A stretch of DNA of 64,000 bases, taken from contig CM067298.1 in the NCBI GenBank assembly GCA_034231615.1, positions 8,918,140 to 8,982,139 of the forward strand. The letters run 5' to 3'. Source of the DNA: Meghimatium bilineatum. Lineage: Eukaryota > Mollusca > Gastropoda > Stylommatophora > Philomycidae. Positions 6,222-54,332 of the stretch are shown one piece after another. The notes below the pieces were generated by a model. That model worked only from the letters and a program-made list of their open reading frames with translations. It had not been told where the DNA came from and ran no database searches. Every line of letters begins with the position of its first letter. Position 1 is the first letter of the stretch. The position numbers and the translations under genes were made by a program.

Positions 6222-7097
6222 TATCAAACATTGCACACCGATGAGATCAAACATTGCATACAGATGATATCGAACATTGCACACCGATGAAATCAAACAT
6301 TGCACACCGATGAGATCAAACATTGCACACCGATGATATCAAACATTGCACACCGATGAGATCAATCATTGCACACAGATGAGATGAAACATTGCACACC
6401 GATGAGATCAAACATTGCACACCGATGAGATCAAACATTGCACACCGATGAGATCAAACATTGCACACCAATGAGATCAAACATTGCACACCGATGAGAT
6501 CACACATTGCACACCAATAAGATCAAACATTGCACACCAATGAGATCAAACATTGCACACCGATGATATCAAACATTGCACACCGATGAGATCAAACATT
6601 GCACACCGATGAGATCAAACATTGCACACCGATGATATTAAACATTGCACACCAATGAGATCAATCATTGCACACCGATGAGATGAAACATTGCACACCG
6701 ATGAGATCAAACATTGCACACCAATGAGATCAAACATTGCACACCGATGATATCAAACATTGCACACCGATGAGATGAAACATTGCACTCCGATGAGATC
6801 AAACATTGCACACCAATGAGATCAAACATTGCACACCGATGATATCAAACATTGCACACCGATGAGATCAAACATTGCACACCGATGAGATCAAACATTG
6901 CACACCAATGAGATCAAACATTGCATACAGATGATATCAAACATTGCACACCGATGAGATCAAACATTGCACACCGATGAGATCAAACATTGCACACCGA
7001 TGAGATCAAACATTGCACACCAATGAGATCAAACATTGCACACCGATGAGATCAAACATTGCACACCGATGAGATCAAACATTGCACACCAATGAGA
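6222..7097. repeat. 23-bp minisatellite, large array
   Basis: About 38 head-to-tail copies of the unit 'gagatcaaacattgcacacc' plus 'gat'. The variable positions are mainly gaga/gata and cgat/caat. There are no spacers between units, so it is a satellite-like array and not a CRISPR. It ends in the same flank as the 5337 array. Confidence 0.97.
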
Positions 7098-9620: not shown

Positions 9621-9696
9621 CTGCGCAAAACTGAAATCCAACAGATAAATCTAGGAAGAGGGTAATGAAGTTTTGATAATCACTATAGACACACAT

Positions 9697-9732
<36 letters not shown>

Positions 9733-10540
9733 ATTTAGACCAAAAGTAATTTATCAGGACACAAATTAAAACAAAATTAAAACATACAACAGAAAATGGA
9801 CAGTAAGGATATAGACGTTCACATTGGCATTTGTAATATAGAGTGACCGGAATAGATGAAACGATATCGGACAAGGAGGAATATACAAAAATGACTAGAT
9901 ACATGTAACACGAAACAAACAGAAACTATGGAACAACTAGAATCATACATGAGACAGGCGCTCATTAATGTCGTCGAGTTTAAAAGTGCCATATTGATAA
10001 ATGTCGCAGTTTTCAAGCTAAAGTCGGGTTCGGTGGTCAGCGCAGCACGACTTAATGGTCGTAACCTGAATGTTCTGGACGCCCCGATTACCCGTGCCAC
10101 TGAAGTGGACGTCTACAGGATAACCCAAATGATTTTTATGCCATACAGTCGTTCGCAGAATCGGTCTGCGAGCCTCCTTCCAGTTTCACCTACATATTCC
10201 ATGATGCATGCTTCCATATGATGGCATAGATGGCTTTGCGGAACACACATGTGAATCTCTCCTCATTGGCATAGGAAATATGACAGACCGGGTCTTGTGG
10301 ACATAGGAACAAGTGTAGCATTTGCTGCGTTTGCAGCTGATGGTGCCGAAATTATTAGGAACATCAGGCTGGTGGTGACTCCGAACATAAAGATCTCTCA
10401 GATTGTGTCACGTCTGTAAGCAACAAGAGGGGGTGGGGGATTCTAAAACATTTCCCGCGTCTCGGAATGAGACTAGAGAAGAGGAAGGTGACGAAGCAGG
10501 ACATGACGAACTGCAGCGCCACCTTCACCATTGAGGATAG
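9620..10540 (-). mobile_element. Penelope-like element 3' end, copy 1 (minus)
   Basis: On the minus strand, from about 10540 downwards, come a remnant of the reverse-transcriptase C-terminus ('FVMSCFVTF' region, frame-broken), a linker, and a GIY-YIG endonuclease relic with 'MEYVGETGRRLADRFCE' (about 10205-10155). The tail contains a (CA)n run at 9703-9726 and ends near 'cattaccctcttcc'. Penelope-like elements combine a reverse transcriptase with such an endonuclease. Stops and frameshifts show that this copy is dead. Confidence 0.75.
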
Positions 10541-11095
10541 CTTCACATATGTGTCTCACAACTTAATCTATGCCATCATATGCAAGCGTTGCGTCGTGGA
10601 ATATGTAGGTGAAACTGGAGGGAAGCTCACAGACCGATTCTGTGAACATATGTATTGCATAAAAACCAATCGGGTTATCCTGTAGACGTCCACTTCAATG
10701 ACATGGGCCATCGGGATGCCATGAACATTCAGGTTACGACCATTAAGTCGTGCTTCTCTGATGACCGGACCCGTCTTTCGCTTGAGAACCGCTACATTTA
10801 CCAATATGGCATTCTTAAACCCTACGGTATAAATGAGCGCCTGTCTCATGTATGATTCTAGTTGTTCTATAGTTTCTGTGTGTTTCGTGTCACAAGTATG
10901 TAGTCATTTTTGTATATTCATTGTCCGGTGTCGTTTCACCTCTTTTATATTACACTCTATATTACACATGTCAATGTGCACTTCCTTATTCCTACTGTCC
11001 GTATTCTGTTTATTGTTTTAATTTTGATTCAATTTTTGTCCTGATAAATTCATCTTGGTCGAAACGTCGATGTGTGTGTTATTATGTGTGAAGTG
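10540..11095 (+). mobile_element. Penelope-like element 3' end, copy 2 (plus)
   Basis: The plus strand encodes a GIY-YIG-type endonuclease: 'VEYVGETGGKLTDRFCEHMY' at about 10597-10657, then, after a frame change near 10670, a C-terminal part with 'NIQVTTIKSCFSDDRTRLS' and the end 'GINERLSHV' at 10855. The tail continues to 'cattaccctattc' at about 11090 and contains 'CTGATAAA...GGTCGAAACGTCG' (11040-11070). It is joined head-to-head with copy 1. Confidence 0.8.
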
Positions 11096-11407
11096 ATGAG
11101 CAAAACTTCATTACCCTATTCATGGATTCATCAACATTCAGCAATCTTTCTAGTCGATATTCAGTAATAAGTCTCAATAACATAACAGCAGCTGTGATTG
11201 TCTCCAGATTATTAAGGCCTTACAGCTGACCACACATGCATGACTATTGCTTGAAACAGTTACATCTACCATGAACTTTGAAATCCCTCTTAACTAATCC
11301 CTCTGTCACGCAGACCTGCACACATTGATTCTTGAATACAATAGAATCAAATGGTTTCTCAAACTGATCTGTACATTTGTCAAAAATAAGACACAATACA
11401 TTAATGC

Positions 11408-13305: not shown

Positions 13306-13589
13306 AGCAATGGAATAATGTATTTTGTTAAAAATCCGTTCGTTGTGACAAATCTGTACGCAGGGGCATTGTCATATTAAGCAACCCAAGTGCCTGTGCA
13401 ACACTTCTCAGGACGATGTCTGCCAATAGCTTCGCTTGGATTGCTTGCACAAGTGTCACTGTGTTCCGTATACGTTTGCATTGAGACTGTCATCTAAAGA
13501 CATATTCATGATTCGTGATGAATCTACTAAATATGCCAGTCATGAGTGAGCGTACACGATAGTAGTGTACGATGCATGGAACGAGCGGC

Positions 13590-13860
13590 GAGTGTGCTGA
13601 GTGTGCCGAGTGTGCCGAGTGTGCTAATATAGCTCATATAACAAAATACTCTGGCTGGCGAGGTTGTGCAAAGGACGTGCCGAATGTGCCGGAATGTGCT
13701 ACTATAGCTCATATAACAATATACTCGGTCTGGCGAGGTCGTGCAAAGGTCGTGCCGAATGTGCCCGAATGTGCTAATATAGCTCATATAACAATATACT
13801 CGGTCTGGCGAGGTCGTGCAAAGGTCGTGCCATGTCATGCCATGTTACATAACCGGATAA
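13590..13860. repeat. 75-bp repeat at outer edge of left arm
   Basis: Three copies of a 75-bp unit containing 'agctcatataacaatatact' and 'ggcgaggtcgtgcaaaggtc', spaced exactly 75 bp (13632, 13707, 13782), then degenerate relatives to about 14100. The GC content is higher than in the rest of the arm. Confidence 0.93.
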
Positions 13861-14329
13861 TACACTCGACACGAGTGTGCTTTTTATAGTCCATATAACA
13901 TTATACTCGACCTGGAGAGCTCGTGCAAATGGGTGTCATGTTACGCCATATTACATAACCGGATAATACTTAACTCATATAACAATATACTGGATACGGA
14001 GAGGTCGTGCAAAGGAGGCACCATATGTCGTGATGTTATATAACCGGCTTCAATATAGCTCAAATAACAATAAACGTGTCATACAAAAGTCGGGTAAAGG
14101 TCGTCACCTGGTACTTATCCGCCTAATATATACCTCATATAACAATAATGAGCCGCGAATATGCCGAGTGTGTAATCGAATGGGCCTGTATCCCCGCTCA
14201 TCCAATATGGTGCCAATCGAAACCAGCCGAACCGACCAGCGGCGGAGTGTGGTCAGGAGCTATACCCACTCGCTGTGGACGAATCCGGTCAAATTGTGTA
14301 TTGAATGATGCGAATGTGTGTGCGGTGGA

Positions 14330-15410
14330 TCTGGTATGTGGTAGTGGAATTTTCCTTTTATTTGTTTTGCTGATACAAGGAGCTGGGCCCGTGATAAAGA
14401 AAATTTTCAATGCGACTTTCAGCGAATGAGGTCTGAATAGCCCCATCTCCCCTCCTTGTGTTGGTGGGGCTGCGTTTGGTGAGTATTAACATGTTTTGAC
14501 TTTATTTGTTTAGTGGGTATCTTGTGGTTTTTCCACTGAAATTTATTTATGGCACTATCTTTTTATATAAAACGAACCAATTTTAAACCACATGTGAAAG
14601 AGCATGCAAAGTTCAGATCATAAAACTGCCAGATGCAATATAATTACACTCGCGGAAACTAGCCAGAACAGTGTAATTAACACATGGTCGTGTCTGGGGT
14701 GTTGTGGAGATGGTAATAAAAATAAGGTATGGATGCTGTAAGAGCGGTTAAAGGCACGTGTATGTGAGTGGGTGTATGATAGTGACATTTTTTCCTTAAT
14801 TGTTAGGCTGATACAATGAGCGGGGCTCATGATAAAGAAAATGTCCACTGCACCTTCCAGCGAATGAGATCGGCATAACACTACCTCTCCCACTTGTGTC
14901 TATGGGGTTGAGTTTGATGCGTATTAACATGTTATAACTGAATCTGTTTAGTGGGTATGTTGTGGTTTTTCTACTGAAATTTATTTATGACAGTATCTTT
15001 TATATAAAACGAACCAATTTTAAACCACATGTGATCGTAATTTTAAACCACATTACGATCACGCAAAGTTCAGATCGTAAAACTGCCAAATGCAATATAA
15101 TTACAGTCCTAGGAACTAGCCAGAACAGTGTAATTAACACATGGCCGTGTCTGGGGTGTTGTCGAGATGGTAATAAAATATGATATCGGTGCTGTCAGAG
15201 AGGTTAAAGGAATGTTTATGTAAGGAGGTGATTGGTAGTCGTATTTTTACTTCAGTTGTTATGCTGTTACAATGAGCTGGGCTCATGATAAAGAAAATTT
15301 CCACTGCCACTTCCAGTAAATGAGGTTAGCATAACCCCACCTTCCCCCACTTATGCTGGTGGGGGTGTTTGCTGGGTATTAACATTAACATGACCTTATT
15401 TGTTTAGTGG
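14330..15410. repeat. 440-457-bp direct repeat in left arm
   Basis: Two full and one partial copy of a unit that includes 'aacgaaccaattttaaacca', 'cagaacagtgtaattaacac' (14664 and 15121) and 'gataaagaaa' (14393, 14831, 15287). The copies are clearly diverged from each other, while each is nearly identical to its mirror in the right arm (25230-26200). Confidence 0.88.
15031..15062. repeat. Short perfect hairpin inside arm
   Basis: 'gtgatcgtaat' and its exact reverse complement, separated by 10 bases. The same hairpin is present in mirror position in the right arm (about 25550-25582). Confidence 0.8.
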
Positions 15411-15599
15411 TTATGTTTGGGATTTCTGCTTACATTCAAGTGGTTCTCAAATTGTAAAATTCTGACCATGCAATGTAAAACCCCTGACATATAGACACAA
15501 CAAAACTTGATGGTCTCTGTATGCTCTTCAACTATGTTCTACCATATTATCATTATGGTCCCACTAAATTCTAACAGGGTCTACTTTGGTTCAATATAT

Positions 15600-18310
15600 T
15601 CTTAGTATATTCTCGCTTGAGTCTTAAACTAGGTTCTCATGTGCAGCTTCAATTATGTTCTCTCTGTGTTTTGAGTTATTTTTCTCTACCAAAAGGTTTC
15701 TTATTAACATTTCTTCATCGCAAATGGTGTGTTTATCAGATGTCGAAATTAACAAGTCACACGAAAACACATTTCAGCGATTTCTCACTAACAACATAGT
15801 ACATTTGAGAAGTTTTATTTGTGTAAACTTAACATTTATCGGTGGGTTTTTTTTCACAATTAGATAAGCCACTTATACGGATTTTCGATGTTTTATTAGT
15901 TGTCTAAATTGTCATAAGAAAACACATTTCAGTATTTTTGCAGTAACAAGATGACAAATTTTATCGTGTTTCTATTTGTGTGACTGTACCATGTACCATT
16001 TTTCCACAACTAACCAACCTGCTTTTAGTGATTTTCGTTATGTTTTATCATTTGTCTAAATTATCATACCACACGAAATATACTTCAGTACTTATACACA
16101 AACATTATAACACATTTTTTTTTATTTGTGTGAGTACATCATTTACAATTTTTCACAAGTAACCATCCCACTTTTACTATGTTATCATACTAAAAGAAAC
16201 CATTTTTCAGTACGTTGCCACTAAGAACATTGCAAATTTTGCCATATTTTTATTTGTGGGACTGCGGCATTTATCAATTTTATTGATGTTCGTTATGTTT
16301 TGTCAGTAGTTATCTAAATTAGATACCATACAAACCCATATTTCAGTACTTTTGCACAAACATCACATATTTACCATGTTTTATTTGTGCGCTTTCAACA
16401 GTCATTACTATTTTTGCAATTACACAATCCGAAGTGGGTGATTTTCGTTATGTTTTATGAGATGTCTAAGTTATGATACCATACGAAGCTATTTTTCAGT
16501 ACGTTGCCATAAACAACATAACAACTTTTGATATGCTTTTATCTGTTAAACTTACTCACTTATCACTTTTTCACAACTAGGCAAGTTGGTGGTAGTGCCT
16601 TTCAGTGTGATCAAACAGTATTTATCTCTTTTCTATACTTACAGTTGCGCATTTCACGACATTTAGACACAAAACACGGTTCCAATGAACTTATTTTCAT
16701 ATGGTCAACTGCATGTTTTAGCTGTTTTCAAAATTATTACTCCATACGAAAAAACACTTCTCACTAACCTCATACACCATTTTGACAAACTTCTGTTTAT
16801 GAAACAGCATCGTTGATCACTACTCATAGACAATACCAACACATTTCACACATAGACCCTGTAAATATCCCGTACTGATAGCCCGTGCTGATCCCCCGTG
16901 CTTATACTTCGTTCTGATATCCCGTGCTAATAGCCCGTGCTGATATCCCCTGTCAAAATCCGCTGGTGATATCCGTTGTCAAAATCCGCTGCAAATTTAC
17001 GCTGTCAAGATCCGCTGCTGATATCCCCTGTCAAGATTCGCTTCTATCACCTGTCAAGAGCCGCGGCTGATATCACCTGGTGAGATCCGCTGCTGATATC
17101 AGCTGGCAAAATCCGCTACTGATTACTCTAGTCAAGAACTGATGCTGACATCCCTTGTTGACAATCGACATGTTACATCCCTTTTCACAACTAGGCAAAC
17201 TGCTTATAACATTTTTTGCTATGATCGAAAGCATTGGACGCTGATTTTCTAGACATACAAGATAAATGTTTCTATTTGTATATACCAACGCCTCATATTA
17301 CATATTTCCATATGACAAATTGTCTGTTTAGCCCTTTTAACAGCTAGGCAAGTCGCTTTTACCACATTTACATATGATAAATGGCATGTTTTTCACTTGT
17401 CACAGTTAGGCAAGCCGCTTTTAACGCATTACCATATGACAAACGGTATGTTTTATAAGTTATCACACCATATGAAAACCTATTACAAGGCGTTTACACT
17501 AAAAACACAACGCATTTATCACTTTTCACAGGTAGACAGTCTGATTTTCGTAGTTTTCACAATGAGTAAAGTCACTATTTCACCCGTCTCTAGACTTACA
17601 ATGACAAATTACAGTGGTTTTATGTACCAACATGTTTAATATTACATATATCCAAATGACAGAAGTCATGTTTTATCACTTTCACAACTAAGCACATAAT
17701 TTCTAACACATTTTGCTATAATCAAAGACACTGGATGGGGCCTTTCTAGACTTACAGTGCAAATATCCTTATTTGTATGTACCAACAAGTTTATATTACG
17801 TATTTCCATAGGACTGCCGTCATGTTTTATCACTGTTCACAACTAGGCAAACCGCTTTTAACAATTTTTGGTATTACTAAAAACATTGTGTGGTTGTTCT
17901 CTAGACTTACTCTATAATTTTTCCTATTTTTATGCACCAACCGGCTTCAAATTGCATTTTTCCAAACGACAAAGTTCTTCTTGTTTTATCACTTTTGACA
18001 GCTAGCGAAAACGATTTTAACAATTTTCATAGGACAAACAACATGTTTTATTAGTTTTCTAAATTATCAGTTTATATGAAACCAGATTACAATACGTTTA
18101 CACTAAAAAACATAACGCATTTAAGCACTTTTCACAGGTAGAAAATTACCTTTCGTAGTTTTCGCAATGATCAAAGACATTATTTTGGTCGTTGCTAGAC
18201 TTACAAGGCAAATTACCATACTTTTATGTACCAACAAGGTTCATATTATATATTTCCATATGACAAGCTTCAGGTTTATCGCTTTTCACAATTAGGCAAA
18301 CCGCGTTTCG
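15600..18310. repeat. AT-rich degenerate long-period repeats in left arm
   Basis: Recurring blocks such as 'ttttcacaactaggcaaacc', 'gtctagacttacaatg', 'tatttccatatgac' and 'tgttttatcac' reappear about every 200-250 bp with heavy divergence. No coding sequence is recognisable. A sub-block at 16860-17130 is built from alternating 'gctgatatc' and 'tgtcaagatccgctg' words. Confidence 0.75.
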
Positions 18311-18848
18311 CAAACCCCTAACGATAACCCTGGTGATATCACATTGCATTAGCCAAGGCCGATAGCCCCTATTGATACACATGGAAATGACCTATGACAC
18401 TACACCCTGTTAATAGCTCATCCGGATATCACCATACTAACAAACCATACTAATATAATATTCGTTATTAACACCAACACGACTAAAAAAACCCTGATAC
18501 AGGACTATCTGGCTAGAAACAACTGACACATTATATACAACTAAATACCGATACAATATAAGAGGTGGTGTTGTTGGTTATGGTTTGCATATATTTCCCA
18601 GTTATAGATAAATATATACCAAACTAAACTCGACAATATATAAAAAAAGACAATCACATATTTTAAAAAATACTGACAAATACAGAAAAGACATACAAAG
18701 AAAAATTTAACAACGCAGCTTTTCTCATAATGGTTTATTGAAGCATTTGAACGATATACATAGCGTAGTTAGAAAGGGACATATGTTGGTGTCAGCATTT
18801 ACCATCTATAAGAACAGCTTCAATTGGTTGAGTCTGTTGTTTAAACAC

Positions 18849-19741
18849 TCAACCCAACGGATGGTCATTTATAAAATATAAGTCGAAAGAAGTTCCCACA
18901 ATGTTCTCCAGCTGATATTTGGTATTTGGCCGCGTATTCTGGGCAACATCCATAGGGTCAGCTTCGTTAACTTTCTGAACAAAGAGGTCAAAGTCGTGTC
19001 TATTATTTATCAGCGCTGGGTACTCTAAAACAGCCGAATTGTTTACTGAGCCGTGAAAAAATCTTGGTTCTAATGTCTCTCGATGCCGTAAAATCAAATG
19101 TTTGGAAAAGTTCACTTTGAACCTCTTAGTTTGGTCAGTGAACATGGGTCTTAGAACCTCATTCCAGTCTTGTATATGAGGTATCGTTGGGGGATGAAAA
19201 AACGTGTAAGTAGCGCTGGACTTACGAACTGTGATATGTGTATGTATAGTTGACCAATTATCAATATATATTTGCTGTATGTCTAATGGTAAACCATCTA
19301 AAAAATCGAATTGGGGTGAGCTAGGTGCACGTGGTGTTAGTGCTCTTATGGTGCCGTTATTGTCTGGTAGTAGTGGTTGTGATGATAATGGAGGTACACT
19401 GTTTTCAGAGGTAGCAGACAGCGACAATGGCGATGTAATTTCCAAAACTGCTGCTAACGAAGATCCAGTCATATGTGGGGGTGAAACTGATAAAGTTAGT
19501 GGTGTAACTGGCGCGGATCCACGACCAACACGCCCATTCATTTGTTCTTGGTGTTTCTTTACGTGCCGCTGTAAAGACGCAACATCAGAATAGTCACTCT
19601 TACAAACAGAACAGTTAATCGACGCTTCATGTGCAAATTCTGACAATGTCTGTGCAGTGTATATACGCGTTCAAACTCTTTCCCACAAGTTTCACAGGCG
19701 TAGGCTTTGCTACCTGGGGCGACCTGGTGATGATAAAACAC
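18849..19741 (-). pseudogene. Two-C2H2-finger protein gene, left-arm copy (truncated, frameshifted)
   Basis: Transcribed outward from the palindrome centre. The first frame (19741-19559) has one complete C2H2 finger, 'CETCGKEFERVYTLHRHC', whose second histidine follows four residues later (C-x2-C-x12-H-x4-H). The second finger, 'CSVCKSDYSDVASLQRHVKK', is in the frame shifted by -1 (from about 19646), so the two are separated by a frame break. A serine/proline-rich linker follows, then an acidic and aromatic region ending 'FDLYFINDHPLG' at a stop. There is no good ATG at the 5' end; 'tcatcaccag' before GTCGCC could be a splice acceptor. The organisation resembles, from general memory, the N-terminus of large invertebrate proteins that continue into a B-type DNA polymerase; no polymerase motif is present here. 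The identity is an inference. Confidence 0.6.
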
Positions 19742-20292
19742 AAATATGTCAATAGGACAAACACATATATTTTAGTCGATGTAACAACCAAACCATAATA
19801 AAAGCATCGCTAAATAACAGAATATACGCAATAATACACACTAATTATAACCATACAGAACTAATGCAGTGACAAACGGACATGGTGTTTAGTTCGCCAC
19901 AGACCGACGATGTAAGCAGCATAAAAACTAACATACATCATATAACAAAACAAAGGTATTACATACAACCAACGTACTGATGGAGCTGAAACCATAACGG
20001 CTAATTAGACAACAACAGTGGTTAGCTTTTCGGTTATCTATTATAACTCTAACACACTAGAAAACACGTTGTGTGTTGGTAGTTCAAAGAAAACGACTTA
20101 ATGAGACCGCTAAGGACTGTCGCGGATATTTATTAGCCCTTGGGAACCAAATTACTATTTTCACTAACCCTAATCGCCATGAAATATTCTATGTCTATGT
20201 ACCAGTGAATTTCTTCTTTTTTTTTAAACTAGTCATAAGCGAACTTTTATCACACCAAGCAAAATCAAACACGTCCCCTCCTCTTATTACTA

Positions 20293-20317
20293 GTCACCTT
20301 GTATGTGTTAGTGGCTA
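20293..20317. other. Palindrome centre, 25-bp unpaired spacer
   Basis: The sequence between the two inner arm ends. It is not self-complementary, so if the palindrome extruded it would form the loop. The innermost 35 bp of each arm carry more mismatches than most of the arm. Confidence 0.9.
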
Positions 20318-20869
20318 TAGTGATAAGAGGAGGGGATGTGGTTGATTTTGCTTGGTGTGATAAAAGTTCGCTTATGACTAGTTTTAAAAAAAAGAAAGAA
20401 ATTCACTGGTACATAGACATAGAATATTTCATGGCGATTAGGGTTAGTGAAAATAGTAATTTGGTTCCCAAGGGCTAATAAATATCCGTGACAGTCCTTA
20501 GCGGTCTCATTAAGTCGTTTTCTTTGAACTACCAACACACAACGTGTTTTCTAGTGTGTTAGAGTTATAATAGATAACCGAAAAGCTAACCACTGTTGTT
20601 GTCTAATTAGCCGTTATGGTTTCAGCTCCATCGGTACGTTGGTTGTATGTAATACCTTTGTTTTGTTATATGATGTATGTTAGTTTTTATGCTGCTTACA
20701 TCGTCGGTCTGTGGCGAACTAAACACCATGTCCGTTTGTCACTGCATTAGTTCTGTATGGTTATAATTAGTGTGTATTATTGCGTATATTCTGTTATTTA
20801 ACGATGCTTTTATTATGGTTTGGTTGTTACATCGACTAAAATATATGTGTTTGTCCTATTGACATATTT

Positions 20870-21803
20870 GTGTTTTATCATCACCAGGTCGCCCCAGGTA
20901 GCAAAGCCTACGCCTGTGAAACTTGTGGGAAAGAGTTTGAACGCGTATATACACTGCACAGACATTGTCAGAATTTGCACATGAAGCGTCGATTAACTGT
21001 TCTGTTTGTAAGAGTGACTATTCTGATGTTGCGTCTTTACAGCGGCACGTAAAGAAACACCAAGAACAAATGAATGGGCGTGTTGGTCGTGGATCCGCGC
21101 CAGTTACACCACTAACTTTATCAGTTTCACCCCCACATATGACTGGATCTTCGTTAGCAGCAGTTTTGGAAATTACATCGCCATTGTCGCTGTCTGCTAC
21201 CTCTGAAAACAGTGTACCTCCATTATCATCACAACCACTACTACCAGACAATAACGGCACCATAAGAGCACTAACACCACGGGCACCTAACTCACCCCAA
21301 TTCGATTTTTTAGCTGGTTTACCATTAGACATACAGCAAATATATATTGATAATTGGTCAACTATACATACACATATCACAGTTCGTAAGTCCAGCGCTA
21401 CTTACACGTTTTTCATCCCCCAACGATAACTCATATACAAGACTGGAATGAGGTTCTAAGACCCATGTTCACTGACCAAACTAAGAGGTTCAAAGTGAAC
21501 TTTTCCAAACATTTGATTTTACGGCATCGAGAGACATTAGAACCAAGATTTTTTCACGGCTCAGTAAACAATTCGGCTGTTTTAGAGTACCCAGCGCTGA
21601 TAAATAATAGACACGACTTTGACCTCTTTGTTCAGAAAGTTAACGAAGCTGACCCTATGGATGTTGCCCAGAATACGCGGCCAAATACCAAATATCAGCT
21701 GGAGAACATTGTGGGAACTTCTTTCGACTTATATTTTATAAATGACCATCCGTTGGTTGAGTGTTTAAACAACCGACTCAACCAATTGAAGCTGTTCTTA
21801 TAG
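20870..21803 (+). pseudogene. Two-C2H2-finger protein gene, right-arm copy (more damaged)
   Basis: Mirror of the left-arm gene. It has the same frame break between fingers 1 and 2, so that lesion is common to both copies. In addition a T-run at about 21410 has five Ts where the left arm has six, which breaks the frame again after 'SATYTFF'. Near 21755 it has one G fewer than the left copy, so the end differs ('HPLVECLNN'). Amino-acid changes include S/N and D/A near residue 110 of the long frame. Not functional as read. Confidence 0.6.
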
Positions 21804-24800
21804 ATGGTAAATGATAACACCAACATATGTCCCTTTCTAACTACGCTATGTATATCGTTCAAATGCTTCAATAAACCATTATGAGAAAAGCTGCGTTGTT
21901 AAATTTTTCTTTGTATGTCTTTTCTGTATTTGTCAGTATTTTTTAAAATATGTGATTGTCTTTTTTTATATATTGTCGAGTTTAGTTTGGTATATATTTG
22001 TCTATAACTGGGAAATATATGCAAACCATAACCAACAACACCACCTCTTATATTGTATCGGTATTTAGTTGTAAGAAATGTGTCAGTTGTTTCTAGCCAG
22101 ATAGTCCTGTATCAGGGGTTTTTTTAGTCGTGTTGGTGTTAATAACGAATATTATATTAGTATGGTTTGTTAGTATGGTGATATCCGGATGAGCTATTAA
22201 CAGGGTGTAGTGTCATAGGTCATTTCCATGGGTATCAATAGGGGCTATCGGCCTTGGCTAATGCCATGTGATATCACCAGGGTTATCGTTAGGGGTTTGC
22301 GAAACTCGGTTTGCCTAATTGTGAAAAGCGATAAACCTGAAGTTTGTCATATGGAAATATATAATATGAACCATGTTGGTACATAAAAGTATGGTAATTT
22401 GCCTTGTAAGTCTAGCAACGACCAAAATAATGTCTTTGATCATTGCGAAAACTACGAAAGGTATTTTCTACCTGTGAAAAGTGCTTAAATGCGTTATGTT
22501 TTTTAGTGTAAACGTATTGTAATCTGGTTTCATATAAACTGATAATTTAGAAAACTAATAAAACATGTTGTTTGTCCTATGAAAAGTGTTAAAATCGTTT
22601 CGCTAGCTGTTAAAAGTGATAAAACAAGAACTTTGGCGTTTGGAAAAATGCAATATGAAGCCGGTTGGTTCATAAAAATAGGAAAAATTATAGTGTAAGT
22701 CTAGAGAACAACCACACAATGTTTTTAGTAATATCAACAATTGTTAAAAGCGGTTTGCCTAGTTGTGAACAGTGATAAAACATGACGGCTGTCCTATGGA
22801 AATACGTAATATGAACCTTGTTGGTACATACAAATAAGGAAATTTGCATTGTAAGTCTAGAAAGGCCCCATCCAGTGTCTTTGATTATAGCAAAATGTGT
22901 TAGAAATTATGTGCTTAGTTGTGAAAGTGATAAAACATGACTTCTGTCATTTGGATATATGTAATATTAAACATGTTGGTACATAAAACCACTGTAATTT
23001 GTCATTGTAAGTCTAGAGACGGGTGAAATAGTGACTTTACTTATTGTGAAAACTACGAATAGTAGCATGTCTAGCTGTGAGAAGTTTTAAATGCGTTGTG
23101 TTTTTAGTGTAAACGCCTTGTAATAGGTTTTCATATGGTGTGATAACTTATAAAACAAACCGTTTGTCATATGGTAATGCGTTAAAAGCGTCTTGCCTAA
23201 CTGTGACAAGTGAAAAACATGCCATTTATCATATGTAAATGTGGTAAAAGTGACTTGCCTAGCTTAGCTGTTAAAAGGGCTAAACAGGCAATTTGTCATA
23301 TGGAAAATATGTAATATGAGGCGTTGGTATATACAAATAGAAACATTTATCTTGTATGTCTAGAAAATCAGCGTCCAATGCTTTCGATCATAGCAAAAAA
23401 ATGTTATAAGCAGTTTGCCTAGTTGTGAAAAGGGATGTAACACGTCGATTGTCAACAAGGGGATGTCAGCATCAGTTCTTGACTAGAGTAATCAGTAGCG
23501 GATTTTTGCCAGCTGATATCAGCAGCGGATCTCACCAGGTGATATCAGCCGCGGCTCTTGACAGGTGATAGAAGCGAATCTTGACAGGGGGATATCAGCA
23601 GCGGATCTTGACAGCGTAAATTTGCAGCGGATTTTGACAACGGATATCACCAGCGGATTTTGACAGGGGATATCAGCACGGGCTATTAGCACGGGATATC
23701 AGAACGAAGTATAAGCACGGGGGATCAGCACGGGCTATCAGTACGGGATATTTACAGGGTCTATGTGTGAAATGTGTTGGTATTGTCTATGAGTAGTGAT
23801 CAACGATGCTGTTTCATAAACAGAAGTTTGTCAAAATGGTGTATGAGGTTAGTGAGAAGTGTTTTTTCGTATGGAGTAATAATTTTGAAAACAGCTAAAA
23901 CATGCAGTTGACCATATGAAAATAAGTTCATTGGAACCGTGTTTTGTGTCTAAATGTCGTGAAATGCGCAACTGTAAGTATAGAAAAGAGATAAATACTG
24001 TTTGATCACACTGAAAGGCACTACCACCAACTTGCCTAGTTGTGAAAAAGTGATAAGTGAGTAAGTTCAACAGATAAAAGCATATCAAAAGTTGTTATGT
24101 TGTTTATGGCAACGTACTGAAAAATAGCTTCGTATGGTATCATAACTTAGACATCTCATAAAACATAACGAAAATCACCCAATTTGGATTGTGTAATTGC
24201 AAAAATAGTAATGACTGTTGAAAGCGCACAATAAAACATGGTAAATGAGTTATGATGTTTGTGCAAAAGTACTGAAATATGGGTTTGTATGGTATCTAAT
24301 TTAGATAACTATTGACAAAACATAACGAACATCAATAAAATTGATAAATGCCGCAGTCCAACAAATAAAAATATGGCAAAATTTGCAATGTTCTTGGTGG
24401 CAACAGACTGAAAAATGGTTTATTTTAGTATGATAACATAGTAAAAGTGGGTTGGTTTACTTGTGAAAAATTGTAAATGATGTATTCACAAATAAAAAAA
24501 ATGTGTTATAATGTTTGTGTAAAAGTACTGAAGTATATTTCGTGTGGTATGATAATTTAGACAAATGATAAAACATAACGAAAATCACTAAAAGCAGGTT
24601 GGTTAGTTGTGGAAAAATGGTACATGGTACAGTCACACAAATAGAAACACGATAAAATTTGTCATCTTGTTACTGCAAAAATACTGAAATGTGTTTTCTT
24701 ATGACAATTTAGACAACTAATAAAACATAGAAATTCCGTATAAGTGGCTAATCTAGTTGTGAAAAAAAACACCGATAAATCTTGAGTTTACACAAATAAA

Positions 24801-25229
24801 ACTTCTCAAATGTACTATGTTGTTAGTGAGAAATCGCTGAAATGTGTTTTCGTGTGACTTGTTAATTTCGACATCTGATAAACACGCCGTTTGCGATAAA
24901 GAAATATGTTAATAAGAAACCTTTTGGTAGAGAAAAATAACTCAAAACACAGAGAGAACATAATTGAAGCTGCACATGAGAACCTGGTTTAAGACTCAAG
25001 CGAGAATATACTAAGAATATATTGAACCAAAGTAGACCCTGTTAGAATTTAGTGGGACCATAATGATAATATGGTAGAACATAGTTGAAGAGCATACAGA
25101 GACCATCAAGTTTTGTGGTATCTATATGTCAGGGGTTTTACAATACATGGTCAGAATTTTACAATTTGAGAACCAATTGAATGTAAGCGAAATCCAAACA
25201 TATCCACTAAACAAATAAGGTCATGTTAA

Positions 25230-26200
25230 TGTTAATACCCAGCAAACACCCCACCAGCATAAGTGGGGGAAAGGTGGGGCTATGCTAACCTCATTTACTG
25301 GAAGTGGCAGTGGAAATTTTCTTTATCATGAGCCCAGCTCATTGTATCAGCATAACAATTGAAGTAAAAATACGACTACCAATCACCTCCTTACATAAAC
25401 ATTCCTTTAACCTCTCTGACAGCACCGATACCATATTTTATTACCATTTCGACAACACCCCAGACACGACCATGTGTTAATTACACTGTTCTGGCTAGTT
25501 CCCAGGACTGTAATTATATTACATTTGGCAGTTTTACGATCTGAACTTCGCGTGATCGTAATGTGGTTTAAAATTACGATCACATGTGGTTTAAAATTGG
25601 TTCGTTTTATATAAAAGATACTGTCATATACAAATTTCAGTAGAAAAACCACAACATACGCACTAAACAGATACAGTTATAACATGTTAATATGCAGCAA
25701 ACTCAACCCCATAGACACAAGTGGGGGAGGTAGGGTTATGCCGATCTCATTCGCTGGAAGGTGCAGTGGAAATTTTCTTTATCATGAGCCCCGCTCATTT
25801 TATCAGCCTAACAATTAAGGAAAAAATGTCACTACCATGCACCCACTCACATACACGTGCCTTTAACCGCTCTTACAGCATCCATACCCTTATTTTATTA
25901 CCATCTCCACAACACCCCAGACACGACCATGTGTTAATTACACTGTTCTGGCTAGTTTCCGCGAGTGTAATTATATTGCATCTGGCAGTTTTATGATCTG
26001 AACTTTGCATGCTCTTTCACATGTGGTTTAAAATTGGTTCGTTTTATATAAAAAGATAGTTCCATAAATAAATTTCAGTGGAAAAACCACAAGATACCCA
26101 CTAAACAAATAAAGTCATAACATGTTAATACTCACCAAACGCGTTTCCCACCAACACAAGGAGGGGAGATGGGGCTATTCAGACCTCATTCGCTGGAAGT
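25230..26200. repeat. 440-457-bp direct repeat in right arm
   Basis: Mirror of the repeat at 14330-15410, on the opposite strand, with the same order of blocks. Confidence 0.85.
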
Positions 26201-26779
26201 CGCATTGAAAATTTTCTTTATCACGGGCCCAGCTCCTTGTATCAGCAAAACAAATAAAAGGAAAATTCCACTACCACATACCAGACCCACCCACACACAT
26301 TCGCATCATTCAATACACAATTTGACCGGATTCGTCCACAGCGAGTGGGTATAGCTCCTGACCACACTCCGCCGCTGGTCGGTTCGGCTGGTTTCGATTG
26401 GCACCATATTGGATGAGCGGGGATACTGAGCCCATTCGATTACACACTCGGCATATTCGCGGCTCATTATTGTTCTGTGAGGTATATATTAGGCGGATAA
26501 GTACCAGGTGACGACCTTTACCCGACTTTTGTATGACACGTTTATTGTTATTTGAGCTATATTGAAGCCGGTTATATAACATCACGACATATGGTGCCTC
26601 CTTTGCACGACCTCTCCGTATCCAGTATATTGTTATATGAGTTAAGTATTATCCGGTTATGTAACATGGCGTAACATGACACCCATTTGCACGAGCTCTC
26701 CAGGTCGAGTATAATGTTATATGGACTATAAAAAGCACACTCGTGTCGAGTGTATTATCCGGTTATGTAACATGGCATG

Positions 26780-27115
26780 ACATGGCATGACATGGCACGA
26801 CCTTTGCACGACCTCGCCAGACCGAGTATATTGTTATATGAGCTATATTAGCACATTCGGGCACATTCGGCACGACCTTTGCACGACTCGCCAGACCGAG
26901 TATATTGTTATATGAGCTATAGTAGCACATTCGGGCACATTCGGCACGACCTTTGCACGACCTCGCCAGCCAGAGTATTTTGTTATATGAGCTATATTAG
27001 CACATTCAGGCACATTCGGCACGACCTTTGCACGACCTCGCCAGCCAGAGTATTTTGTTATATGAGCTATATTAGCACACTCGGCTCACTCGGCACACTC
27101 AGCACACTCGCGGCT
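26780..27115. repeat. 75-bp repeat at outer edge of right arm
   Basis: Four copies of the 75-bp unit seen at 13590-13860 in reverse orientation, one more than in the left arm. One copy lacks two bases ('cacgactcgcc'). Confidence 0.93.
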
Positions 27116-27138
27116 CGTTCCATGCATCATACACTACT

Positions 27139-27599
27139 ACTTACGATCTCTTGCAGACTTGCCTCGATCTTATTAGTGGGGATGGGGGGGGCGGGGTGAA
27201 GGCTCATCTTTGAAGCTTGTCATCATCAAATTATCTACGTCCAATATTGAAACCAGAACAAAACTCAAATATTGTAGATTTACTTAAATCGGACTCTTCA
27301 AACGCGGATTGGAATACTTTAAAAGTTGTGGTACCATTTTTTTAAGCCGAATGCAGAAAATAATATAAACACACATTATTGAAGAATAAATCCATTTTTT
27401 GAAATGCGACCACATAAACTGAGTCACCTTCACTTCTGGGATCGCATACAGAGCATATGTGATGTTACATACATCCCGTTACGTGAATACATTAGCACAT
27501 GGATATCACATACACCTGGTAAATTGCAATGCTCAACGTATTGCGTTTTTTCGTGGTGACATCAGTCAAGGAAATTATTGAACAGCCCTCGTAACATAC

Positions 27600-29895: not shown

Positions 29896-30164
29896 TGTAA
29901 GTGAAGAATAGAAATATCTGACTCAGTGACCGATTGATTACGATGAACAAATCGTGCCATATGTTCTACATTATTATGTTATAGCTGAACGTTTCATCGT
30001 ATGAAACCAATGAATTTTAAGTCGTGGTACCAGAATTACCTGAATCATTACGTCCGTTTGTTTTCTGATAGACATAGCTCTGATATAACTAAATTTGACT
30101 ATAATTTAGAGATTGAAAGAGTATTCAGCATTACATGAAGCGCTTTATATTTTGATGCATATAT

Positions 30165-30560
30165 ACGCTGTGGTCCTCGTTTGCCTTGCGCCGTCAGGGG
30201 TAGAAGAGTTCTCTGGAGATGGCTTTCTTGTGTGCTTCTTGAAAGCTTGTTCATGCCTATGCCTTCTTTGATTTCTGTGGTCCATCATTTACATGGCCTG
30301 GCTTTATAGCCGTGATGTCTATGAGTCATGGTTATCTGTGGCATGCTGTCTGTTGGTTGTCTGGAAGCGTGCGAAAACCACTTGATCTATTGTCTTTTGA
30401 TGTGTTCCTATACTGGTATTGTTTTGGTTATCTGTCTGATGTTAACTTTTCTAATTCGATTTCTCAATGACACACAGAGCATTCTTCGTAGACATGACAT
30501 TTCTGCTGTCACTATTTTTCTTTTGTCTTGTGCTGTCATTGTCCAGGTTTTATAATATTT
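30165..30560 (-). mobile_element. Non-LTR retrotransposon fragment, reverse-transcriptase C-terminal end
   Basis: The reverse complement corresponds to 61530-61900 of the better-preserved LINE. For example, the antisense frames at 30328-30555 and 61744-61511 are alignable over about 70 residues ('LEACENHLI', 'TGIVLVICLML'). The copy is inserted in GALNT sense orientation in intron 6. Confidence 0.7.
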
Positions 30561-32799: not shown

Positions 32800-33232
32800 T
32801 GTATGCCATTTCAGTTGTATTTCATTTAAATCAGGTAATTCATTGCGAGGACGACTTCCTCGAGACAGCCTACGAGATGACAGATTTCTTCCACTGTCGC
32901 CTATACCCCGAGAGAGTCATCAGGTCTGCCCTTCTACGAGCATGCAGTCCCTCCCGTCAGGAAACCCTGTTGAACACTCGGAAGACTTCCACAATGACAG
33001 GGTCAAGCTTGCTCTCACTTTCCACCCCCATAGCGCTGCCGTTCGTCATGTCCTGCTTCGTCACCTTCCCTTCTCCACTCTGATACCGAGACGCGGAAAA
33101 TGTTCTGTAATCCCCCTCTTGTTGCTTACAGACGTGATAAGAACTTGAGGAATCTACTGGTCCGGAGCCACTTCCATCATGTCGTTTCTAATCATTTCTT
33201 CACCACCAGCTGCAAATGCTACACATGTGTGT
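32800..33232 (+). pseudogene. Penelope-like reverse transcriptase C-terminus
   Basis: Two plus frames (32793 and 32789 starts) cover 'ERVIRSALLRACSPSRQETL', 'LNTRKTSTMT' and, in the other frame, 'DRVKLALTFHPHSAAVRHVL' followed by 'IPRRGKC'. The same nucleotide block precedes the endonuclease in copy 1 at 10440-10540. It is broken by a frameshift near 33000 and cut at about 33232 by a LINE fragment. Confidence 0.7.
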
Positions 33233-33234
33233 AT

Positions 33235-33465
33235 GTGTATATTTCTTTCTTTCATTGAGTCTCCGTCAACAAGCATTCGACTGCCCAAGAACTTAATGTT
33301 GAAGACTTTTTCCAGTATTTGGTTGTTTACTGAGATGTTATTTCTTGAACTGGTAAGTTCCATGATTTTTTTTGTTTGAATATTTTGTAAAATGACATCA
33401 GGTATTGATTCTGCAATGTCAGTTGTATCTGTCTTGTGCAAGACGTATATCCAGGAATACGGTAA
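33235..33465 (-). pseudogene. Non-LTR reverse transcriptase fragment
   Basis: The minus frame has 'NIQTKKIMELTSSRNNISVN', then 'LEKVFNIKFLGSRMLVDGDS', the pattern of the LINE segment that follows the catalytic core (KT...M...V.G..LE.V..F.YLGS...DG). Small fragment. Confidence 0.6.
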
Positions 33466-33489
33466 TTAACTTTTGCTAAACTAGAGGCA

Positions 33490-33760
33490 CACATAATAAC
33501 ACACATAAATCGACGTTTCGACTAAAAGACCTTTATCAAGGCAAAAATTGAAAAAAAATGAAAACATACAACAGAAAACGAACAGTAAGGACATGGACGG
33601 TAACATTGTGTGTAATATAGATTGACTGGAAGAGGTTAAATGACACCGGACAAGGAAAATACAAAAATGACTACAAACATGTGACACGAAACAAACAGAA
33701 ACTATGGATCAACTACACTCATACATGAGACAGCCGTTCATTATTGCGTCGGGTTTAATG
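33490..33760 (-). mobile_element. Penelope-like element tail
   Basis: Highly similar on the minus strand to the tails of the 9620-11095 pair ('gaaactatgg', 'acacgaaacaaacag', 'cataataacacacat'). It carries the best-kept 'TTGATAAAGGTC...AGTCGAAACGTCG' motif at 33511-33540. Confidence 0.75.
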
Positions 33761-38814: not shown

Positions 38815-40100
38815 TAAATGCAACTTATATACGAAATATTGAAATTTATGTAAGAAATAATGCGACATGTATACGAAATAATAAAATATGTATAAGAATT
38901 CATGCAACTTGTATAATCAATAATGTAGCTTGTATAAGAAATATTGCAATTTATGTACGAATAATGCAACTTGTATACGAAATAATGCAACATTAAATAA
39001 TGCATTTTATGTAAGAAATAATGCAACTTGTATTTAGCAATAATGCAACTTGCATATGAAATAATGCAATTTGTTTAAGAATTCATGCAATTTGTATACG
39101 CAATAATGCAACTTGTATAAGCAATAATGCAAAATTATTAAGGAATAATACAACTTGTATAAGAAATAATTCAATTTATATGAGAAATAATGCAATTCGC
39201 ATGAGAAATAATGCAAATTTTGTAAGAAATAATGCAACTTGTGTAAGAAATAATGAAATTTATCCAAGAAAATAAAGCAACTTGTGCAATAAATAATTCA
39301 ATTTGTGTAAGACATAATGCAACTTGTATAAGAAATAATACAATTTATGTAAGAAATTATGCGTCTTGTAAAAGAAACAATGCAAATTGAATAAGAAATA
39401 TTGCAATTTATGTAAGACAGTGATACTTGTGTAAGAAATAATGTAATTTATGCAAGAAATAATGCAACATGTGTAATAAATAATGCAACAATATATAATT
39501 CAATTCATGTAAAGAAATAAGTATACGCAATTTGTATATGCAATAATGCGATTTATGTAAGAAATAATGCAATATATGTAAGAAATAATGCAACTTGTAT
39601 AAGAAACAATGCAATTTATGTAAGAAATAATGCAACTTGTATAAGAAATAATGCAATTTATGTAAGAAATAATGCAACGTGTATAATAAATAATGAAACT
39701 TATATAAGAAATAAAGCAACTTGTGTAAGAACCAATTCAATTTCTGTAAGACATAATGCAACTTGTATAAAAAAATAATGCAATTTATGTTTTACATAAT
39801 GCATTTGTATAAGAAATAATGCAATTTGTATAAGAATTCATGCAACTTGTATAAGCAATAATGCAACTTTTATAAGCAATAATGCAACATTAAATAATGC
39901 AATTTATGTAAGTCAATGCAACTTGTATAAGAAATAATATAATTTTTGTAATAAATAATGCAACTTTTATAAGAAATAATGCAATTAATGCAAGAAATAA
40001 TGCAACGTGTATAATATATAATGCAGCGAGAAATATGCAACTTATGTAAGAAATAATGCGTCTTGCATAAGAAATAATGTAATTTATGCAAGAAATACAG
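38815..40100. repeat. Degenerate 20-24-bp minisatellite, 1.3 kb
   Basis: More than fifty diverged units built from 'aagaaataatgcaacttgta' and 'aatttatgtaag'. Unlike the neighbouring arrays the copies are highly heterogeneous, so it is older or no longer homogenised. It makes long H/Y/L-rich minus frames that are not genes. Confidence 0.93.
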
Positions 40101-41339: not shown

Positions 41340-41680
41340 CGTTTAATTATTGTTGGCCTGGCGGTTGGTCACTTTTTGAATAAAAATTCTTGAGACTAAT
41401 GGGAATTGAACCAGTCCGTTCAACGGCACCTAATCGCCTAGCAACTATTGCACAAGTACTTGACAAACGGCATCTCCAAAAAAAAGATGCGATTTCGTCA
41501 ATACATTCAAAGTGTGCACTCAAAGCGACCCGAACGGACCAATCGAGACAAGGACTATTACAACAACAACAAACATCACGTACAGGTATTAAAATATCCT
41601 CTGTAACAACAAACCTATAACATTTAATATCCGTATTAGTTATACAAAGGCCGATAGGTCTTCTTGTAAACACGGATAAA
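41340..41680 (-). repeat. Dispersed 320-bp repeat, copy 1 (minus)
   Basis: The reverse complement is highly similar to 56745-57070: shared 'tttacaagaagacctatcg', 'tgttgttgttgtaatagtcc', 'ttgtctcgattggtccgttc' and 'cgttgaacggactggttcaa'. The last block resembles a tRNA B-box (GGTTCAATTCCC), so a SINE-like origin is possible. I know no name for it. Confidence 0.8.
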
Positions 41681-42414: not shown

Positions 42415-43575
42415 ATACAGTAGATCCTTCGGTACTCTGTCAAAATATAGTAGATCCATGGATATTGTGTCAAAATAAAGTAGATCCATGGATATTGTGC
42501 CAAAATACAGTAGATCCATGGATATTGTGCCAAAATACAGTAGATCCATGGATATTGTGTCAAAATACAGTAGATCCATGGATATTGTGCCAGAATACAG
42601 TAGATCCATGGATATTGTGTCAAAATACAGTAGATCCATGGATATTGTGTCAAAATACAGTCGATCCATGGATATCGTGTCAAAATACAGTAGATCCATG
42701 GATATTGTGTCAAAATACAGTAGATCCATGGATATTGTGTCAAAATACAGTAGATCCATGGATATTGTGTCAAAATACAGTAGATCCATGGATATTGTGT
42801 CAAAATACAGTAGATCCGTGGATATTGTGTCAAAATACAGTAGATCCTTGGATATTGTATCAAAATACAGTAGATCCATGGATATTGTGCCAAAATACAG
42901 AAGATCCATGGATATTGTGTCAAAATACAGTAGATCCATGGATATTGTGCCAAAATACAGTAGATCCATGGATATTGTGTCAAAATACAGTAGATCCTTG
43001 GATATTGTGTCAAAATACAGTAGATCCTTGGATATTGTGTCAAAATACAGTAGATCCATGGATATTGTGTCAAAATACAGTAGATCCATGGATATTGTGT
43101 CAAAATACAGTAGATCCATGGATATTGTGCCAAAATACAGTAGATCCATGGATATTGTGTCAAAATACAGTAGATCCATGGATATTGTGCCAAAATACAG
43201 TAGATCCATGGATATTGTGTCAAAATACAGTAGATCCTTGGATATTGTGTCAAAATACAGTAGATCCATGGATATTGTGCCAAAATACAGTAGATCCATG
43301 GATATTGTGTCAAAATAAGTAGATCCTTGGATATTGTGCCAAAATACAGTAGATCCGTGGATATTGTGTCAAAATACAGTAGGTCCATGGATATTGTGTC
43401 AAAATAAGTAGATCCTTGGATATTCTGCCAAAATACAGTAGATCCATGGATATTGTGTCAAAATACAGTAGATCCATGGATATTGTGTCAAAATACAGTA
43501 GATCCATGGATATTGTGCCAAAATAAGTAGATCCTTGGATAATGTGCCAAAATACAGTAGATCCTTCGGTACTCT
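42415..43575. repeat. 30-bp minisatellite, about 38 copies
   Basis: The unit is 'agtagatccatggatattgt' plus 'gtcaaaatac'. It contains the palindrome 'atccatggat'. Variation is concentrated at two sites: gtc/gcc and ccatgg/ccttgg. It is open in several frames for more than 300 codons because the unit is a multiple of three and lacks stops; I do not call these genes. The edges share the variant 'gatccttcggtactctg'. Confidence 0.98.
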
Positions 43576-47704: not shown

Positions 47705-48455
47705 TGTAACAAATGTTCATCATCGTTACTTGTGATGGACAAACAACATCATCAAATTCTTGTGATGGACAAACAACATCATCGTTACTTGTGATGGTCG
47801 AACAACATCATCAAATTCTTGTGATGGACAAACAACATCATCGTTACTTGTGATGGTCGAACAACATCATCAAATTCCTGTGATGGTCGAACAACATCAT
47901 CGTTACTTGTGATGGTCGAACAACATCATCAAATTCTTGTGGTGGACAAACAACATCATCGTTACTTGTGATGGACAAACAACAACATCAAATTCTTGTG
48001 ATGGTCGAACAACATCATCGTTACTTGTGATGGTCAAACAACATCATCAAATTCTTGTGATGGTCGAACAACATCATCGTTACTTGTGATGGTCGAACAA
48101 CATCATCAAATTCTTGTGGTGGACAAACAACATCATCGTTACTTGTGATGGACAAACAACAACATCAAATTCTTGTGATGGTCGAACAACATCATCGTTA
48201 CTTGTGATGGTCGAACAACATCATCGTTACTTGTGATGGTCGAACAACATCATCAAATTCTTGTGGTGGACAAACAACATCATCGTTACTTGTGATGGTC
48301 GAACAACATCATCAAATTCTTGTGGTGGACAAACAACATCATCGTTAATTGTGATGGACAAACAACAACATCAAATTCTTGTGATGGATGAACAACAACA
48401 TCAAATATTTGTGATGGACAAACAACATCAAATATTTTTGATGGACAAACAACAA
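47705..48455. repeat. 29/30-bp alternating minisatellite, about 25 copies
   Basis: Two related units alternate: 'cttgtgatggtcgaacaaca' plus 'tcatcaaatt' (30) and the same start plus 'tcatcgtta' (29). A block of several units appears to have been duplicated ('cttgtggtggacaaacaaca' recurs at about 47936, 48114, 48261, 48321). Confidence 0.95.
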
Positions 48456-48479
48456 CATGAACATATAATTCTTGTATTG

Positions 48480-51499: not shown

Positions 51500-51835
51500 A
51501 TAAAAAATTCCCAAACAAATTTGAAACGTGCAAAGGAAAAATATTTGGCAAAGTACCAGGAGCATAGACAAACTATATATGATCATAACATACATATTCC
51601 TAGTGTTGAGACGCAGTTGTGAGGCATGGACATCAAATAAAACAATAGCAAAGAGAATCTCTGCTTTTGACATTATAAGAACAGAAAAATTTGACGTATA
51701 TTGGCAGTTAAAAACATAAATCAATATGTGTTAAGATCAATAAATGTAGAAGAGTATTGGCTTTTTAACGTCATAATAAGAAAGCGGTGTTTCTTTGGTA
51801 ATATAAAGAGACATAGAAGCATGGATAGATTAACA
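51500..51835 (+). pseudogene. Non-LTR reverse transcriptase C-terminal fragment
   Basis: Plus frames contain 'SCEAWTSNKTIAKRISAFDI' (LINE W-T-x-x-K...R-x-x-A-F-E) and later 'WLFNVIIRKRCFFGNIKRHR' (the G-H-x-x-R region). It is cut off at the start of the octamer array at about 51835. Confidence 0.65.
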
Positions 51836-54225: not shown

Positions 54226-54332
54226 CGATTTCTTGCAGCACCATTATAGTCCTCCTAGATTTCCAACAGGATGTAGTCCAGGATGTTGTATCGCCTTTTT
54301 TACGACAATGGCCTCACACATCCATCTTCGGC
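54225..54332 (+). repeat. Dispersed 140-bp repeat family, copy E (5' truncated)
   Basis: Has 'ttcttgcagcaccattatag', 'tcctcctagatttccaacag', 'gatgtagtccagga', 'gttgtatcgccttttttacg' and 'cacatccatcttcggc'. It begins where the octamer array ends. Confidence 0.75.

Follow-up and report, generated by a model that had tools for sequence, protein, structure and literature searches.

A family of giant palindromes with Maverick-type ends in the gastropod Meghimatium bilineatum: probable non-autonomous Maverick satellites

The palindrome in the window

The stretch of DNA analysed here (the window, 64 kb, C1:8918140-8982139; contig CM067298.1 of assembly GCA_034231615.1) lies within the 1.61-Gb genome of the stylommatophoran gastropod Meghimatium bilineatum (32 contigs). 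It contains a palindrome of 13,581 bp (13561-27141; positions without a contig name are those of the window), which we interpret, with a probability of roughly 0.85, as a non-autonomous Maverick (Polinton) satellite whose entire length is one inverted repeat.

Self-comparison of the window gave one inverted match (13,474 columns, 97.3% identity), and the limits of the palindrome were set by the termini AGTAGT...ACTACT. An earlier note on this DNA had described a giant palindrome with two mirrored arms of 6.7-6.8 kb and a 25-bp centre. The arms were confirmed (6.74 and 6.84 kb, ~97% alike) and the centre was close to that description (about 25 bp of asymmetric sequence at ~20292-20317, with the same centre in other palindrome copies). 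The start given in the note, 13561, was retained, and its end was corrected from 27138 to 27141 by the terminal ACTACT. The arms differed by substitutions, indels and a repeat unit, as had been reported: the arm-to-arm alignment contained 140 substitutions in 6,727 aligned positions, together with short indels, and one 74-bp unit and one 10-bp block were present in the right arm only. The features of the palindrome are as follows.

13555..13560, no strand: left target-site duplication CACGAT (5/6 match with the right copy)
13561..13624, + strand: left terminus AGTAGT..., 64 bp in common with the resident Maverick terminal inverted repeat (86-89% against three Maverick copies, base 1 to base 1)
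13561..20291, + strand: left arm (self-comparison and arm-to-arm alignment)
13603..13831, + strand: 75-bp tandem units of the left arm, ~3 copies
14333..15436, + strand: outer non-coding repeat modules of the left arm, ~440-bp period, 78% alike (self-comparison)
18849..19723, - strand: left-arm main exon of the PolB N-terminal gene; its boundary at 19723 is a prediction, read by eye from the acceptor CACCAG|GTC
19978..19995, - strand: predicted first exon, left arm, ATG to before the donor GTACGT (putative, read by eye)
20292..20317, no strand: asymmetric centre, present in other copies
20318..27141, - strand: right arm (self-comparison and arm-to-arm alignment)
20941..21803, + strand: PolB N-terminal gene, right arm, in two broken frames (20941-21429 and 21390-21803)
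25190..26299, - strand: outer non-coding repeat modules of the right arm (self-comparison)
26794..27096, - strand: 75-bp tandem units of the right arm, ~4 copies (left arm plus one)
27078..27141, - strand: right terminus ...ACTACT, mirroring the left terminus
27142..27147, no strand: right target-site duplication TACGAT

No Rfam family matched the window at the gathering score, and tRNA scans of the window and of L019 (a stretch retrieved from contig C20, see below) found none.

Copies across the genome

The genome was queried with the 341-bp centre and with the arm gene. The centre query gave 70 matches, many of them paired in opposite orientation (40 of 73 first-look candidates scored), and the arm-gene query gave 129 (129 of 2,006 first-look candidates scored). 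Of these, 107 were close (at least 59% identity, some being fragments) and the remaining 22 were at 42-44% identity. The close matches were grouped into 62 loci, of which 38 were head-to-head pairs (including that of the window) and 24 had matches on one strand only; given the number of candidates scored, all three counts are lower bounds. They answer the proposal of the earlier note to look in the genome for single-arm copies and additional junctions.

Ten other palindromes were retrieved whole from nine loci (two at C20), taken from the top matches of the centre query, and eleven further loci (L028-L037 and L047) were retrieved at 4.4-5.0 kb. Palindromes were 12.0-15.7 kb long with arms of 5.9-8.1 kb (nine copies: the window and eight others, both C20 palindromes being left out). 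The arms of one copy were mostly 99.4-99.9% alike in long aligned stretches, and 94-98% alike across differences in repeat units. At C20:14349898-14376107 (L019-L021), two palindromes in the same orientation were found 13,060 bp apart, as if tandemly duplicated, with irregular junctions built of end and inner-arm pieces.

Resident Mavericks

A full-length Maverick of 13.5 kb was found at C11:8844714-8858202, with a terminal repeat of 378 columns at 96.8% and the 6-bp duplication CTCGTG. It encodes an integrase (rve+Chromo, 361 amino acids), an adenovirus-type protease, an Adeno_IVa2/A32-like ATPase, PC4 and a PolB of 1,458 amino acids (L040:873-5249); no capsid genes were identified in it with Pfam. 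The PolB had 1,796 relatives at E <= 0.001 (7,995 candidates scored). Among the 120 listed, many carried PF03175 (DNA polymerase B), and the named species included Bradybaena similaris (a land snail of the Stylommatophora), Pomacea, Littorina, Elysia and Branchiostoma. Among six upstream pieces from this Maverick family, four extended to the terminus, and these had the same end and different flanks.

A second Maverick (C12:18630891-18646158, L048) was seen in part, as its first 10 kb and its last end. It contained frames for integrase, protease, ATPase and PC4 and the C-terminal 676 amino acids of a PolB that was 87% identical to that of C11, and it was flanked by ATTATA on both sides, provided that one extra ACT was allowed. 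The 22 arm-gene matches at 42-44% identity sat in longer open frames. In 14 of these 22 the polymerase frame was open over 1,430 codons or more, suggesting a young age of the Mavericks in this genome.

Termini and target-site duplications

Ends were placed at the AGTAGT closest to the palindrome limit, and the search for duplications permitted offsets of up to 4. All nine scored copies started with AGTAGT and finished with ACTACT, some carrying an additional AGT at one end. A perfect 6-bp target duplication with zero offset on both sides was found in eight of them (CGCGTT, AATGTG, TCTGTG, AGAGAC, GATGTG, CAGGTT, CGCGCT and CTTGTG), and the window copy had CACGAT/TACGAT, matching at 5/6 bases. 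In vertebrate Mavericks, as described in PMC8097293, the commonest end motif is 5'-(AGT)2//(ACT)2-3', which is used together with 6-bp duplications, and terminal repeats span 46-1,447 bp. The AGTAGT...ACTACT ends and 6-bp duplications of the palindromes are hallmarks of Mavericks/Polintons.

The likeness to the C11-family Maverick begins at the first base. Its first 64 bp were 86-89% identical to the window terminus (three of the four end-reaching Maverick pieces compared) and 88% identical to that of palindrome c3a, and the end of palindrome c19b matched the second Maverick (L048) at 97.9% over 96 bp; the c19b end type was also present at further loci. On these alignments, each of two palindrome end types has a matching Maverick in this genome. 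A separate observation concerns c19a (L009/L010), where a 179-codon open frame was found in the terminal repeats, 181-717 from the end and identical in both arms.

The arm gene

Each arm carries one gene, oriented from the centre outward. Its 307-codon frame was open in the ten other palindromes (all 20 arms) and is interrupted in each arm of the window copy; in the left one the break lies just upstream of 19670, and the frame is open from there to the stop at 18849 (273 codons). The product contains two C2H2 zinc fingers, its C-terminal part is about 150 residues long, and a short first exon followed by an intron (ATG...GTACGT...CACCAG) is predicted. The ratio of non-synonymous to synonymous change (dN/dS) was 0.29-0.47 in the seven of ten pairs having at least five synonymous changes; the pairs share branches and are non-independent.

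The resident C11 PolB was the best BLASTP match of the arm gene among the 121 sequences compared (42% identity over 284 columns). The arm-gene frame terminates at DHPLG, and long PolB relatives continue past this point. In a tree of 27 rows (the arm gene and 26 of 121 others), the arm gene was sister to the resident polymerase (support 100/99), inside a Bradybaena group. By homology, the arm gene is the N-terminal ~300 residues of a Maverick DNA polymerase. When the resident polymerase was compared with 18 arms of the nine copies by tblastn, the match was essentially N-terminal (residues 22-327, one window fragment extending to 366), and no complete polymerase was found. In the same 18 arms, tblastn at E 1e-3 gave no match to seven other resident Maverick frames (integrase, protease, ATPase, PC4 and three unnamed), and no other frame of at least 130 codons was found besides the 179-codon frame of the c19a end repeats.

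Other searches added little. Protein database searches with the 273- and 307-residue frames found no relatives among candidates of at most 1.75x the query length, and a viral-contig scan with the arm-gene frame gave no match. Searches of PDB sequences with the arm-gene protein and the resident PolB gave zinc-finger chains at best, and the predicted structure of the arm-gene frame (mean predicted local distance difference test, pLDDT, 38) was set aside.

Concerted evolution of the arms

The inner 1.85 kb (core) of 11 palindromes was compared, the C20 pair being tandem relatives and therefore non-independent. Core differences between the arms of one copy were 0.11-0.38% (1.04% in the window) and those between copies reached 5.2%. 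Out of 154 variable columns, 115 were identical across both arms in every copy and 39 differed between arms in at least one copy, including one centre column that differed in all 11. Arms of the same copy were sisters in the tree for the window, c19a, c25a and c3a (support 100/99 or better) and for c3c (97/95).

The termini gave the same picture: over the terminal 400 bp, arm and arm were 99.3-100% alike in eight of nine copies (85% in the window), and different copies were 56-100% alike. The cores of c3a and c19b were only 0.65% apart and their first 400 bp were 58% alike, with each copy having its own terminus on both arms and the two c3a ends being identical. The arms of one palindrome evolve in concert. 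Arm lengths differed within a copy by 832 bp in c16 (L015/L016), 249 bp in c19a (L009/L010), 573 bp in c25a (L011/L012) and 149 bp in c3a (L017/L018), so that the gain or loss of repeat units is sometimes left uncopied to the other arm.

Loss of sequence beside the centre

In six of the eleven further loci (L032, L033, L034, L036, L037 and L047), the sequence adjacent to the centre was lost on one or both sides and the outer arm was kept on both sides. Four loci (L028-L031) were intact at the centre, and the second inner arm of L035 was absent within the stretch seen. L033-L037 had been picked for single or irregular orientation and L047 for its diverged gene, and the count of deletions is therefore not a rate. 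Chromosomal palindromes thus lose sequence by deletions beside the centre and form a natural series of palindrome decay.

Interpretation and alternative explanations

The termini, the target duplications, the origin of the arm gene, the dozens of dispersed copies and the concerted change of the arms together carry the interpretation of these palindromes as non-autonomous Maverick satellites. They are not Mavericks in the strict sense, because the integrase and a complete polymerase are missing. Replication would be carried out by the Maverick polymerase, beginning at the shared terminal 64-96 bp, and the linear product would be inserted in trans by the Maverick integrase acting on the same terminal bases. 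Strand-displacement replication would release single strands able to fold back over the full arm, and mismatch repair or end-to-end copying in the folded form would make arms and termini alike. The truncated polymerase from the divergent gene pair flanking the centre may bind Maverick ends. After insertion into a chromosome, the palindrome decays through deletions adjacent to the centre. The particular step by which single strands fold back during replication and homogenise the arms is one on which we place even odds.

Several observations weigh against this interpretation or parts of it. Neither movement nor a replication intermediate or excised form was observed. The arm gene points outward from the centre, and the PolB of the fetched Maverick starts near the terminus; with only 42% identity to the resident PolB, the gene was not recently cut from it. 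The Pfam polymerase model gave no match to the 1,458-residue protein, which was identified via its PF03175-bearing relatives. The end types of c19a, c3c and c25a had no matched Maverick. Internal stops were found in 20 of the 107 close gene matches genome-wide, and the ten palindromes with open frames were the best matches of the centre query; three pairs had no synonymous change or a single one, and their dN/dS, above 1 or absent, was unusable. Arms were non-sister in six copies of one young group (c19b, c16, c3b, c1a and the two of C20), and in this group left-left distances were mostly no greater than left-right distances, which argues against full homogenisation at every move. Palindrome c3b (C3) and the C20 palindromes also had three right-arm-only variants in common, two of them adjacent. 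From these shared variants and the non-sister arms, homogenisation is not obligatory at each move.

The strongest alternative keeps the satellite and attributes the likeness of the arms to ordinary chromosomal gene conversion between inverted repeats; we consider it a serious contender, falling a little short of an even chance. Differences between the window arms were patchy, as this account would have it: in 200-bp bins the variance/mean was 3.08, a value above those of all 5,000 random placements (maximum 2.43). The end bins at the terminus and centre contribute to this value, and the longest stretch free of differences (622) was matched by the largest one obtained at random. The right-arm variants of the c3b and C20 copies survived a move, which also fits conversion. 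It is opposed by the centre-proximal deletions, which indicate that palindromes decay in the chromosome, and by c3a and c19b, whose near-identical cores with different termini on both arms suggest rapid copying from terminus to terminus, although conversion would also be capable of this.

A fold-back transposon family independent of Mavericks, encoding an unseen enzyme of its own and having acquired AGTAGT ends by convergence, is very improbable. The c25a, c19a and c3c end types without matched Maverick would suit it. Against this stand termini of 64 and 96 bp in common with two Mavericks, the 6-bp duplications and the gene derived from a Maverick PolB, and the only other frame of at least 130 codons in 18 arms was that of 179 codons in the c19a end repeats.

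Long-read fold-back artefacts are known (PMC12870357), and a break-repair inverted duplication or an assembly fold-back had been offered by the earlier note, yet neither explains 38 head-to-head loci, target duplications flush with both outer ends and arm-specific differences, and we regard both as virtually discounted. Of the four options in that note, the giant fold-back transposon held in outline, and the link to Mavericks was absent from all four. The remaining option, a hairpin-ended linear element joined head-to-head, is not needed, as the centre is internal and common to other copies and the outer ends are integrated termini. Derivation by simple snap-back from a Maverick's PolB end was likewise unsupported, the gene being in the opposite orientation. 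DNA matches of at least 60 bp between the Maverick end region and the arm consisted of the terminal 64 bp and one 60-bp stretch only.

Within the interpretation as Maverick satellites, a more elaborate proposal is a lineage of fully palindromic Maverick hyperparasites, in which replication would be templated by the folded-back arm, both termini would be captured from an active Maverick, the truncated polymerase of each arm would bind or compete at the ends, the length would be that of a Maverick (perhaps for packaging) and more than one unrelated representative would exist (C1:61411189-61423821). This is put forward tentatively and is rather doubtful as a whole. The palindrome length of 12.0-15.7 kb resembles the 13.5 kb of the C11 Maverick, which is, speculatively, a hint of packaging. 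The element at C1:61411189-61423821 (L049, L051) has a Maverick end, and its first ~430 bp are 94% like Maverick L048; it had no match to the c19b palindrome arm past the end repeats, and within tandem repeats 1 kb of its right half matched, at 98% and in inverted orientation, its left half. It is apparently an unrelated palindromic satellite.

Relation to known systems

The palindromes share with Mavericks, as described in PMC8097293, the AGTAGT...ACTACT ends, the 6-bp duplications and the PolB-derived gene, and have termini in common with Mavericks of the same genome; their size is similar to that of the vertebrate Mavericks reported there (12.7-24.6 kb). They differ in giving no match to seven resident Maverick frames (those for integrase, protease, ATPase and PC4, and three more), in the incomplete polymerase, and in an inverted repeat that makes up the whole element (arms of 5.9-8.1 kb, against 46-1,447 bp in the vertebrate Mavericks of PMC8097293).

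Snap-back defective genomes of adeno-associated virus (AAV), as described in PMC8235507, are likewise palindromic derivatives of a DNA replicon, with a partial replication gene and dependence on a helper. The palindromes differ from these in being a chromosomal lineage with a diverged gene of their own that is oriented oppositely with respect to the end, and AAV replication is generally held to proceed by rolling hairpin and not by protein priming, according to PMC11575299. The likeness is one of form, and the direction of the gene speaks against descent by simple snap-back from the PolB end.

The arms of fold-back elements vary through tandem modules, as do those of the palindromes. Long inverted repeats are likewise shared with fold-back elements such as Galileo, as described in PMC4168063 and PMC2775673. 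Galileo belongs to the P superfamily, whereas the termini and gene of the palindromes are of Maverick type, and it is on this, and not on a comparison with Galileo sequence, that the two are set apart.

Other repeats in the window

Outside the palindrome, numerous dense minisatellite arrays with units of 21-59 bp were found at 51834-54226, 42415-43564, 6223-7097, 38817-40097 and 47718-48458. A shorter inverted repeat (9644-10269 / 10528-11132) has arms of ~600 bp that are 80% alike; it has a further, partial copy at 33033-33758 and resembles another mobile element. Two pairs of dispersed inverted repeats (300-400 bp, 83-86% alike) lie at 30162-30550 / 61522-61913 and at 41373-41672 / 56754-57059.

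Significance

To our knowledge, direct evidence on the replication of Mavericks in animals is scarce. In the titles and abstract openings of the open-licence literature, no report of a palindromic or non-autonomous Maverick was found. The palindromes, 12-16 kb long, present in dozens of copies and nearly identical from arm to arm, are unusual material for the study of palindrome decay. A satellite whose arms record end-to-end copying would, if this reading is true, be a genomic trace of the replication mode of Mavericks, and animal Mavericks would then carry parasites of their own.

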